DNA from: Pezizomycotina sp. ARF18
Taxonomy: Eukaryota; Ascomycota
DNA: 64,000 nt
Direction of reading: 5' to 3'
Assembly: GCA_002224055.1 (NCBI GenBank)
Contig: AZLU01000035.1
Span: forward strand, 147,731 to 211,730
Shown piece by piece: positions 28,201 through 32,493 of the stretch (position 1 is the first letter of the stretch; each line of letters starts with the position of its first letter). The translations under genes and the position numbers were made by a program. A model generated the notes under the pieces. The model had not been told where the DNA came from, made no database searches, and worked only from the letters and a program-made list of their open reading frames with translations.

Positions 28201-30487
28201 TTATAACCCCGTAATACTCAACATCTCGCTGTTTCCACTTTCTTTAATCATCTTCCCTAGTGTTTCTGTTTTTTGTTCCGCCTCAAGTAACGCGTCCTTG
28301 CAGACTTCGTTCGTACGCTGCTGTAGTTGCGCTGCTGATACTGCGCCTTTAACGTCTTTTTCTTCGCCGGATAGCATGCGTTTCCAATTCTTGAAGGCGG
28401 GGATGATGGATTCGCGATGTTGGTCGGTGATAGTAGGGAGAGGTGGAGTAGGATTGATAGGCGGAAGGAGGTGGCTGTGGGGGTGATGGCACATTCGCTA
28501 TTTTCACAAAGAATACAAAAGGGTTTGTTAGCCTGAAGAAAGAATGTATAAAAGAGTAGGTTTGGTGAATGGTTGATATACCCAGACGGCATCGACGAGC
28601 TATACTCGTCGCGACCTTTTTGTGTTCCGGCGAGAGGAGGTCGACGACGTAGGAATCTAGTATTACGGAATCCCATTGGTTGTCGTCGAGCGTGAAGCCA
28701 TCTGATACAGACCATATTTGTGAGATTTTCTTCTTTTCAAATGATGCTGAAGGGAAAGGTAAGAGTGCTTTCCCTTACATTCGCAGAGTAAAGCGTCGTT
28801 GCTATGTGATCCGTACGTCACGAATAGCTGCTCTCCTTTCTCTACGAAGAATATAAGTACTTAGCATAGAAGTTTTCCTCTGTATCAAGATCGGGGTTAG
28901 AGAATATGACAAAACGGAAAATTAAAAACTTACTATACGGTTTTCTCGTAGTTGCGGATATACCATCTGTTGAGAATTGCACCATGCACTACGTCAACGT
29001 TAGTCAATGCTATATTTACATTTTTTTAATATATATATTGAAAAGAGGGTGAATAGTAGAGCTACCGCATCTTCATTCTTCTCGCATTCGTGATTTATGT
29101 AGTCTATTATGGGACATGCACAGGCAATCTGCGGTCGGTATCTTCGCCCATTTCCTAGGTCTGTAGTATATCGTCCTGGAGTTGACTATATATGCGTGCA
29201 GTCGATATTAGCCTTCATGAAAATCGATACATAGAGCGTGTTGTTCTTTTATATAGCTTTGGAGCTCTCAACAGACAATGTTTCTCTCTAAGAGAAAAAA
29301 AAAAAAAAAAAACGGATAGAAAACTAAAAGAGAGTCAATGAGATACATAGCAACTCTCGGTATCGATCCGAGTACCTCCAGGTTACGTTATTTCTCACCA
29401 GAAGGTGAGAAGGATATGAGCCTGGCGCGCTTCCAGTGCGCCAAGTTGCTTAGCTTGATGGAGTTAGGCCTCGTCGAAATGAGATATAAATTGCTCAAGG
29501 TCTTCAGAACCCTTCCCTCAACAACTGTGACTGGGGAACACAAGCGAGAAAATTTAATATCGAATGAAGAATAGTAGCCTGGAAACACCCTTGAAATGGA
29601 AGTTTTGAAAGTGGAACTGAAGGTTGAAAAAGAAAAGAATAAAAACGGAATAGAGAGAGCTCTCAAAATATTGCTCTCAAGCTAGTCATTCGAAAATTGT
29701 GCTTGAAAAAAAAAATCGTGCAACTCACCGACAGACCAACCCCATTTGTACTGCTCCTCCGTGTACTTCAATCCCAGCGGCTTTGCCCTGTTGTAGTCGT
29801 CCAGGATCTGTTTCTTCTGCTTCGTTGCGTACTCTGTGGGATTTTTCTTGTGTAACCGGTAGATTAGAAAAACAAAAAACTTTCGTCCTACTCAAATGAT
29901 TTCCTCTCACACTTTAGGGAAAAAAAAAAAAAAAAAAAAAAAAACCAACGAACGTCTCGTCCCAGAAGGAAGCAATTGAAATTTCTCATCGTCCCAGAAC
30001 ATGGGCATGCCAGCTTTGAAGCTTTCCCAGCTCGGCAGTACGTCGACCCACTCCTTCCAGGACTCCGTGATAGCATCACCGCCGTCGCCACCGACGCTGT
30101 TCGCTACGTGCGCCGCCAGGAACCCGTGAGCGGTATTCGGGCGCGTGACCGGGAAGTATTGGGCAGCGAAGGGAGCGTGAGGAGGTTTAGCAGGCAATGC
30201 GTCGGGACGTGAGCTATTTGTTCTCCAGCCTGTAATTTGTTTGAGATCGGATAGTTAGCTATCCTGGTCAGCCATGCACACGTAAATGGCGATAAAATCA
30301 TCGATTATCGAGGAGAAATAAAGTAGAAAGCATCTTAAGGTAGAGGCGACCTTGATATCCTCTGTAGCGATGACGCCGACTCGAATTCGAACTGCGCGGA
30401 GCTATCTTGTTGATCTCGCAACCCTGCTCCTTTGCCATTTGAAGAGCTTCGGGTGGTTTGGTCCAATTTTGAGCTCGTCATGGTCAT
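28201..30487 (-). CDS. SET-domain protein methyltransferase (Rubisco-LSMT/RKM type)
   Basis: A SET methyltransferase with a C-terminal substrate-binding helical region. On the minus strand from ATG 30487: NWTKPPEALQMAKEQGCEI, RVGVIATEDIK (opening of the SET fold), a middle segment with SWKEWVDVLPSWESF, MPMFWDD and LLPSGT (the I-SET region), QYKWGWSVVNSRTIYY joined across an intron at 29186-29728, CPIIDYINHECEKNEDA (the conserved NH motif that binds AdoMet), EKGEQLFVTYGSHSNDALLCEY (catalytic Tyr motif), then a post-SET helical domain (DNQWDSVILDSYVVDLL, ending near WKRMLSGEEKDVKGAV). This order is diagnostic for the SETD3/RKM/LSMT class, which methylates lysine or histidine in non-histone proteins. 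The large intron contains a tRNA gene on the same strand. The stop at 28201 is one choice; another frame stays open to about 28100. Confidence 0.82.
29295..29330 (-). terminator. Likely Pol III terminator of the tRNA
   Basis: In tRNA sense, a T4 lies 18 nt downstream of the gene (29326-29329), followed by T18 at 29295-29312. T4 or longer ends Pol III transcription; the T18 would be a strong backup. The same tract lies within the Pol II-transcribed SET intron. Confidence 0.65.
29348..29450 (-). tRNA. Initiator tRNA-Met (CAT) with a 31-nt intron
   Basis: The full cloverleaf reads on the minus strand: acceptor AGCAACT paired with AGTTGCT (7/7), discriminator A, D arm GCGC-ACTGGAA-GCGC, anticodon arm CCAGG-CTCATAA-CCTGG with anticodon CAT, variable AGGTA, and T arm CTCGG-ATCGATA-CCGAG. 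Initiator hallmarks are present: the A1:U72 pair, A54 and A60 in the T loop in place of the usual T-psi start, and the eukaryotic initiator D arm. A 31-nt intron lies after position 37 and contains a perfect 8-bp hairpin (TTCTCACC/GGTGAGAA, loop TTCT). The spliced length is 72 nt, the usual initiator length. Oddities: the anticodon stem has A29:U41 where initiators carry a third G:C, and position 59 is T. Confidence 0.88.
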
Positions 30488-31183
30488 GAATTCTGATAGC
30501 AATCGAGCACAAGCTTGCCCCGAGGAGCTTTGTTGAATACGGTAGAATTGAATAGTTTATTTAAAAAAAAAAATTATTCCGAATAGATAATCGTTGTCTT
30601 TGATCGAGTAGAATAGAGAGCTTGGGGAGGATTCAAAATCGCGAAAAAAGAAAAAGAGAGAGATCAAATCCAGTTTTAGCCGTAATGGCAATTCAGGAAT
30701 GCGGATGCGGCAAACCTGCATGATGGAAAAAAAGCGAGATCGGGGATCTTTTTTAAATTATTATTATTATTCGTTTGTATCGTGCGCCAATTAAAACACG
30801 TGCGGCGAGGTACTTTAACTTGAGCTATATATCCAGGTATTATAGAGAACAACGAGAATACAGTCTTGGGCCCTTCGAAGTGACCCAATTTCGTCGCGTC
30901 GAGGCTGACGACAATATATAATACAAATTAGAAAAAAGAGAAGAGAGAAAGAAGGAGAGAAAATGGATGGATACATGATATATATAAACGAATGTTTTTC
31001 AAAATACTGGAAGTGTTTCTAAATACCTTGATCAATCCTTACTGGACGAGAATGTCCTTCCATTTCCTACGAGATATCAATTGCGAAGGGAAATTTTGGA
31101 CTTTGCTGGATTACCTTTCCAGATAAACAGGACCAAAAAAAGGTTACAATTTTATAGCTCACTTCCTTACGACGCAGACCTCC
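30488..31183. other. Intergenic, no gene seen
   Basis: AT-rich spacer holding the upstream region of the SET gene and the 3' flank of the dehydrogenase gene, both on the minus strand. The longest open frame (70 codons) has no coding character. Confidence 0.55.
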
Positions 31184-32493
31184 TCATAGCAACCCTCCAC
31201 AGCGCCGAAACAAAATCGCCAAAAACCTAGACCACCCCGCAACCCTGTGCGCCTCATTCAGCAGTATCATGACCCTCCTCGTGAACGGCTCGACGTCCTT
31301 CATATCCTCGCAAACTATATCCATTATACTCCCGCATTCCGCGGGTATACCGCCAAAGCCCTTCCGGCGACCTTGTAATCCGCCGACAACCTTAACCCCG
31401 CGTCCGTTACGTCTTCGATCCTGGCTAGCTCGTTACCGCTCAGCAGCGCTTTTACTATAAACGGTACTATCGGCGTGTCCACGAAGTACGGGCACAGTAT
31501 GTTTACGCGTATCCGGGGAATTTAGAGGAGTACCGGAGGGAGCGGAAGAGGCCCATGACGCCGTGCTTTGTTGCGGCGTACTTGAGATGTTTGTCAGTAA
31601 AACAGGAATAATTACATATAAACCGCTGATTTGGTAAGGTAACGAACCAGTGGATGCCAGGAGCAGCGATGGTGGAAGCGATCGACCCGATCAGGAGGAG
31701 AGATCTGTCGTGTTGCTCGTTCGGATAGGAGGACTGGGATAAATGCGGGTGGTTGCGCATGTAGTGCTGCGCCAGGTAAGTAGTGTACGTTACGCCCTTG
31801 AGATTGACGTCCAGCGTCGTGAGACGTATTTCGGGAGGATCTTCCCCTTCGACTATCCAACGATGATTCTAGCCATTAGATCGTGACATTTTAATGTAAC
31901 AGCTCGCGCGAGCAATGGAATAAATACTGTACGGCACGGCTTTACAAAGTCTCCCAGTTCCGTTACGCCGCGTTGGCGATTACTATGTCTATTGCTGATT
32001 TGGGAGACACATTTTTCCGTTTCCTGAAGAATTCGCACTGCGATTTGTAGTCCGTTACGTCTAGCTTGAAGTAGTAGATCCTGAGGTATTCCTGCAGTAT
32101 TAGCAATGTATACAAAATCTCTGAGAATAATATTACAGAATTCTGTGCAGGTTTAGAGGGTGAGCAATACTTGTCATTCCCACTGCTTTGCTTGACCTCC
32201 TCCACGAGCTGCGTAGCATCCGCTAGGTCGCCTATTACTACCGTCGCACTGCAGTTGCAAGAACAATTCTTTTAGCCTGAGCCATTCCTAAAGAACCAGA
32301 TATCCAACCATAGAAATCCATGAAATGCCCCTATGTATATATCTCACTTTAGCTTCGCGTAAGCCTTCATGAATTCCTTCCCGAATCCCGATGCGCCGCC
32401 TGTTATCAGGACCGTTTTATTTGCTACGGATGATTGGTCCCAATCCTGCTGCATGTCCACGGAGCCGGACATGTATACTTTTTTTGCACTCAT
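31184..32493 (-). CDS. Short-chain dehydrogenase/reductase, 15-PGDH-like
   Basis: NAD(P)-dependent oxidoreductase with a Rossmann fold. Start at 32493: MSAKKVYMSGSVDMQQDWDQ, then NKTVLITGGASGFGKEF (the TGxxxGxG cofactor motif) and AYAKLK. Then, across an intron, CSATVVIGDLADATQLVEEV, KLDVTDYKSQCEFF (acidic D after strand 3), IDIVIANAA (NAG-like motif), TTLDVNLKGVTYT, LLLIGSIAS (catalytic Ser), YAATKHGVMGLFRSLR (catalytic YxxxK), and RVNILCPYFVDTP. The stop at 31184 follows GWSRFLAILFRRCGGLL. About 300 residues. Moulds have many relatives annotated as 15-hydroxyprostaglandin dehydrogenase; the natural substrate is unknown. At least three introns (for example near 31592-31650) and several frame breaks. 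Confidence 0.85.

Follow-up and report, generated by a model that had tools for sequence, protein, structure and literature searches.

Putative initiator tRNA-Met gene nested in sense orientation within an intron of a fungal SET-domain gene

The tRNA genes that lie within introns of protein-coding genes are well known in worms, and nested tRNA genes are thus a known kind of arrangement. According to PMC4999229, 44% of the 609 tRNA genes of C. elegans are intronic, a share not significantly different from chance, and 56% of the intronic tRNA genes of Caenorhabditis are found on the host strand. The same source reports for C. elegans that Pol III occupancy is lower at same-strand than at opposite-strand intronic tRNAs. 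Two further systems are related. In Polr3e, a Pol II gene, intron 1 likewise holds a Pol III unit, an antisense MIR (PMC5358760), and the nimtRNAs, nuclear intronic look-alikes of mitochondrial tRNAs, also place a cloverleaf RNA in a pre-mRNA intron (PMC7722341).

The locus described here shares with the Caenorhabditis cases a nuclear tRNA gene within an intron of a protein gene: a whole tRNA gene is located between the splice sites of a SET-domain gene, on the same strand. It was analyzed in a 64-kb stretch of DNA (C35:147731-211730, referred to as the window) from an assembly of 46.4 Mb in 408 contigs. For the positions of all features see Table 1.

Table 1. Features of the tRNA gene and its host in the window.
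Feature	Positions	Strand	Basis
SET-domain (SETD3/RBCMT-like) host gene, at least six introns, ends by eye	approx. 28201..30500	-	Pfam, PDB, introns, ORFs
Exon preceding the tRNA-bearing intron, ends KYTEEQYKWGWSV	29729..29833	-	ORFs, splice model
Spliceosomal intron of 543 nt enclosing the tRNA gene	29186..29728	-	Donor GTGAGT, acceptor TATAG, branch-like CTAAT at -26
Exon following the tRNA-bearing intron, starts VNSRTIYYRP, apparent frame break near 29111-29116	29066..29185	-	ORFs, splice model
TATA-like element, -38 upstream of the tRNA	29484..29488	-	TATA[ACT] survey
Initiator-type tRNA-Met(CAT) gene, 72-nt mature tRNA and 31-nt intron after position 37	29348..29450	-	ARAGORN with introns, stem pairs, covariation, model R1, fold
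Hairpin-forming tRNA intron of 31 nt, one nucleotide 3' of the anticodon	29384..29414	-	Hand split; equal length and layout in the C39 relative
T4 runs ahead of T18	29326-29329 and 29320-29323	-	Run scan
T18 run, likely main Pol III terminator	29295..29312	-	Run scan, T5+ survey

Structure of the tRNA gene and its relatives

With tRNA introns allowed, ARAGORN found a single tRNA in the window, a Met(CAT) gene at c[29348,29450]. A chance cloverleaf was ruled out by the same search of 100 dinucleotide-shuffled windows, which gave four tRNA matches and none with a CAT anticodon. Without introns, ARAGORN reported no tRNA across the window; Rfam yielded nothing at gathering score over the window and nothing at E-values up to 1 over positions 29000-29900. 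We attribute these misses to the 31-nt tRNA intron, a feature absent from the sequence-only reading, an earlier annotation of this DNA. In the ARAGORN drawing the intron measures 11 nt and the variable loop is long. Rereading the anticodon stem as CCAGG/CCTGG resulted in the 72-nt mature tRNA and the 31-nt intron after position 37 given in Table 1, as in the relative on contig C39. All 21 cloverleaf pairs are formed in the window copy, which scores 114.4 bits against model R1 (built from the window tRNA itself and three relatives). The pre-tRNA folds into the cloverleaf; the minimum-energy shape of the mature tRNA folded alone differs from it, to which we gave little weight.

Eukaryotic initiator tRNA-Met carries A54 and A60 in the T loop, and three G-C pairs (29-31 with 39-41) are typical of initiators. 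The T loop of the window tRNA reads ATCGATA, so that A54 and A60 are both present. Pair 29:41 is A-U in the window copy and G-C in its relatives; the other two of the three pairs stay G-C, and pairing is kept throughout. With respect to what we take to be the yeast initiator sequence, the window tRNA is identical at 58 of 72 positions and the C39 gene at 54 of 72. The A1-U72 pair, named as an initiator feature of eukaryotes in PMC8450103, is A-U at columns 1 and 102 in all five aligned genes, the window copy included. The earlier assignment to tRNA-iMet is thereby backed by the CAT anticodon on an intact cloverleaf, its 21 pairs and A1-U72, though 29:41 is A-U. We claim an initiator-type tRNA, full initiator membership not being settled on sequence alone.

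Five initiator-type genes were recovered by pattern searches and model R1 over 22 sequence sources: the window copy and one gene each on contigs C39, C4, C38 and C2. Each of them contains extra anticodon-loop sequence that can be read as a tRNA intron, and ARAGORN called Met(CAT) for the window copy and C39 only. The C4 gene is missing one anticodon-stem pair and the C38 gene has an altered D arm; since the assembly is noisy, both may be intact in life. The C2 gene (C2:198738-198833, L033:1494-1589) combines an initiator-type body, paired stems and a retained A1-U72 pair with the anticodon CGT in place of CAT. Decay of a former copy, a sequencing error or an unusual initiator-like tRNA could each account for this. 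On C39, the intact initiator-type gene (L036:1494-1596, plus strand) faces an intronless Met-like tRNA (L036:1934-2005, minus strand) at a distance of about 340 bp. In this second tRNA the T loop reads ATCAAAA, and the acceptor stem is followed by an unusual T.

There may be further initiator genes in addition to these five, because an exact pattern search (four CAT copies) left, at one mismatch, five places outside the five-gene tally, and the totals of that pattern, 20 and 22, are close to those of the control, 19 and 16. Another pattern search returned the window gene and one place on C49, where ARAGORN found no tRNA. In the prokaryotic genome collection there were 17 pattern matches and no relative among them. 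The single match in the viral collection (L096), a 34-codon stretch amid phage-like ORFs, was taken as chance. A mitochondrial origin was rejected as well: the relatives are located on contigs other than C50, which is the contig with mitochondrial-type tRNAs. C50 (about 231 kb, end inferred) is a probable mitochondrial contig; its listed tRNA matches extend from 5 kb to 231 kb, are all on the plus strand and are in some cases repeated.

A comparison of the window copy with the C39 gene resulted in 11 differences out of 72 mature positions. Double-sided pair changes occur at four pairs among four sequences (reached by 7 of 500 shuffles) and at five pairs among five sequences (reached by 0 of 500), in shuffles that ignore the relatedness of the sequences. 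With five sequences, the true register pairs in 99% of the cells, compared with 27-41% for slid controls. The changes unique to the window copy (7:66, 29:41, 49:65 and 52:62 in tRNA numbering) preserve pairing. This favours selection on structure, whereas the initiator G-C pair lost at 29:41 counts against it.

The 11 differences, the lost G-C pair and the T tract following the tRNA could also point to a dead tRNA copy or a tRNA-derived repeat (SINE) that inserted at this site. Such a repeat should occur in many dispersed copies. In DNA searches of the genome, with very common words skipped, the tRNA and the whole intron each matched only themselves and no second copy was found. Together with the compensatory stem changes and the retained external signals described below, this makes a dead copy or SINE very improbable.

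The host gene and the tRNA-bearing intron

None of the single exon ORFs matched the Pfam SET domain. Only the hand-joined exon peptide did so, with an E-value of 1e-7 and 32.7 bits (cut-off 22.4) over residues 65-139. In the PDB, residues 30-163 of this peptide align to the actin-histidine methyltransferase SETD3 with an E-value of 1.5e-6, and the similarity extends beyond the SET domain. These two matches argue for the SET methyltransferase host proposed earlier. The alignment contains no gap at WSV-VNSR, which is consistent with the joining of WGWSV to VNSRTIYY in the sequence-only reading. Elsewhere in the genome, the best match of the SET peptide has an E-value of 0.071. For ORF 28201-28497 no match to the Pfam C-terminal substrate-binding domain was obtained; the joined peptide ends before that region. 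A survey of ascomycete SET proteins provides no direct orthologue, because the RuBisCo-type group is omitted from it (PMC2474616). Upstream of the SET gene, a short-chain dehydrogenase-like gene is located at 31180-32270 (minus strand), apparently frame-split as judged by eye.

The tRNA gene c[29348,29450] falls within 29186-29728 in host sense, so the sequence supports its earlier placement in this intron. The intron had also been described as far longer than the others, and with 543 nt it clearly exceeds the five other modeled introns of the gene (121, 120, 77, 92 and 77 nt). One modeled donor of the SET gene is weak (GTCGCC), and one modeled intron has no branch-like motif within its last 60 nt. 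Runs of 18 and 25 T are found inside two of the six introns.

The coding frame of the SET gene is apparently broken, as judged by eye, near 29111-29116, at about 30120-30165 and at about 30395. These breaks are absent from the sequence-only reading; the first of them is also visible in the frames of the genome protein search. About three breaks in some 1.3 kb correspond to roughly twice the rate in a control with chaperonins (CCT, PF00118), for which 33 matches over 9,168 nt contain 11 frame changes where neighbouring matches are separated by fewer than 15 nt, too little for an intron to fit; at least two of the 11 come from nested or widely overlapping matches that may reflect introns. Frame changes of one or two bases are frequent in conserved genes (PF00118 and the SET gene). 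The higher rate could be taken as a sign of a SET pseudogene, or of two gene halves that belong to separate transcripts, leaving the tRNA with no active host. The 11 flagged chaperonin changes in 9,168 nt, however, indicate a noisy assembly, and both the GT-AG introns and the SET motifs have been retained; we regard an inactive host as unlikely. Assembly indels are a likelier cause of the breaks than decay of the host, because the presumably essential chaperonin genes look broken too. This suggests that the assembly is unpolished and that conclusions drawn from reading frames should be treated with caution in this genome.

At the other four initiator-type loci, ORFs of at least 70 aa up to 1.5 kb away were inspected and Pfam was run on ten ORFs, six of them there. 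The C4 gene is located beyond the end of an SRP68 match. The C38 gene is near a rhodopsin-like ORF (Pfam fungal rhodopsin, E-value 3e-4, below the curated cut-off), a match in keeping with a filamentous fungus. On C39 and C2, any ORF of at least 150 aa is more than 750 nt away from the tRNA. Within these ORF and Pfam limits, by which a host with small exons could be missed, only the window copy of the five appears to have a host gene.

Transcription signals and proposed expression

In addition to the TATA-like element at -38, the window copy has a CAA at -7. Downstream, the first T4 starts 19 nt and the T18 starts 36 nt past the tRNA. According to an earlier proposal, the sense T4 and T18 directly after the tRNA could terminate Pol III transcription inside the intron. 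The runs are present and the sequence is compatible with termination there; "directly after" is loose in view of these distances. The window contains 29 A or T runs of 15 or more (13 T, 16 A).

We compared these signals with 15 other nuclear tRNA loci, nuclear meaning not on C50. Eight of the loci came from a genome scan that scored 63 of 1,606 candidates, and five plus two from pattern searches; the four initiator-type relatives are included, three weak tRNA-like R1 matches (L037, L038, L042) were dropped, and the set excludes the further non-C50 matches of the scan. TATA[ACT] occurs at -52 to -22 in 10 of the 15 (window background 14%) and is lacking in five. CAA is found at -20 to -1 in 15 of 15 (window background 28%), and T5 or longer within 40 nt downstream in 14 of 15 (background 14%). 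Inside the tRNA-bearing intron itself, 64 of 483 positions pass the TATA test. Each external signal alone is common and weak; in combination, the TATA element, the CAA and the T run match those of an ordinary Pol III gene.

Based on these results we propose that the locus is a working initiator tRNA-Met gene, an autonomous Pol III unit nested in sense orientation in an intron of an ordinary Pol II SET-domain gene. We assign this reading a probability of roughly 0.78. Pol III most likely would transcribe the tRNA from its internal boxes and the upstream TATA element and would stop in the T4 or T18 runs within the host intron. The 31-nt tRNA intron would then be excised by tRNA splicing endonuclease and ligase. 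Pol II, in turn, would read through the host gene, and the spliceosome would remove the whole 543-nt intron together with the tRNA.

Alternatively, RNase P and tRNase Z could free the tRNA from the host intron, or its lariat, once this has been spliced out; as with intronic snoRNAs, the supply of the tRNA would then follow the host. The sense orientation would allow this, and the authors of PMC4999229 consider such release theoretically possible. The gene, however, carries upstream and downstream signals like the other tRNA genes here, because of which release from the spliced intron is not needed. No such case was among the literature matches listed, and we consider this route very improbable.

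Regulatory interference, which the sequence-only reading had offered alongside tRNA release as a possible outcome, could act on top of the nesting: the Pol III unit might slow Pol II or lower the host mRNA, or Pol II might limit the tRNA. Pol II pile-ups have been described at intragenic Pol III units in both sense and antisense orientation (PMC5358760), same-strand intronic tRNAs in worms have the lower Pol III occupancy mentioned above (PMC4999229), and five nuclear tRNAs lowered the mRNA when placed in a human reporter intron (PMC7722341). In the reporter of PMC5358760, however, expression dropped with the antisense unit only and not with the sense unit. Interference at this sense-nested gene is a possibility that we hold only tentatively.

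It is also conceivable, though rather unlikely, that a large share of the initiator tRNA comes from the gene in the methyltransferase intron, and that host transcription tunes initiation. Initiation would then depend on tRNA splicing too, because each of the five initiator-type genes carries a tRNA intron.

Relation to known nested Pol III units

Initiator tRNA is essential. If intact initiator genes are truly as few as found, selection on the arrangement would be strong. As a distinct, sequence-tagged sense copy in a Pol II intron, the autonomous gene we propose would offer a clean natural test of two polymerases sharing DNA, and would also test whether host transcription sets the initiator supply.

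In the open-access literature we recognized neither a fungal nuclear intronic tRNA gene nor an intron-bearing fungal initiator tRNA among the matches listed, each being weak evidence of absence. Neither was found in the available parts of PMC4090602 and PMC8450103. Compared with the intronic tRNA genes of Caenorhabditis (PMC4999229), the present case is from a fungus, shows signs of a host at one of five initiator-type genes and is known from its sequence alone. The MIR in Polr3e is an antisense SINE with demonstrated interference (PMC5358760), whereas the unit described here is a sense tRNA gene. The nimtRNAs have a mitochondrial origin and influence splicing (PMC7722341); in contrast, the window copy resembles an initiator tRNA gene of nuclear type and carries Pol III signals.
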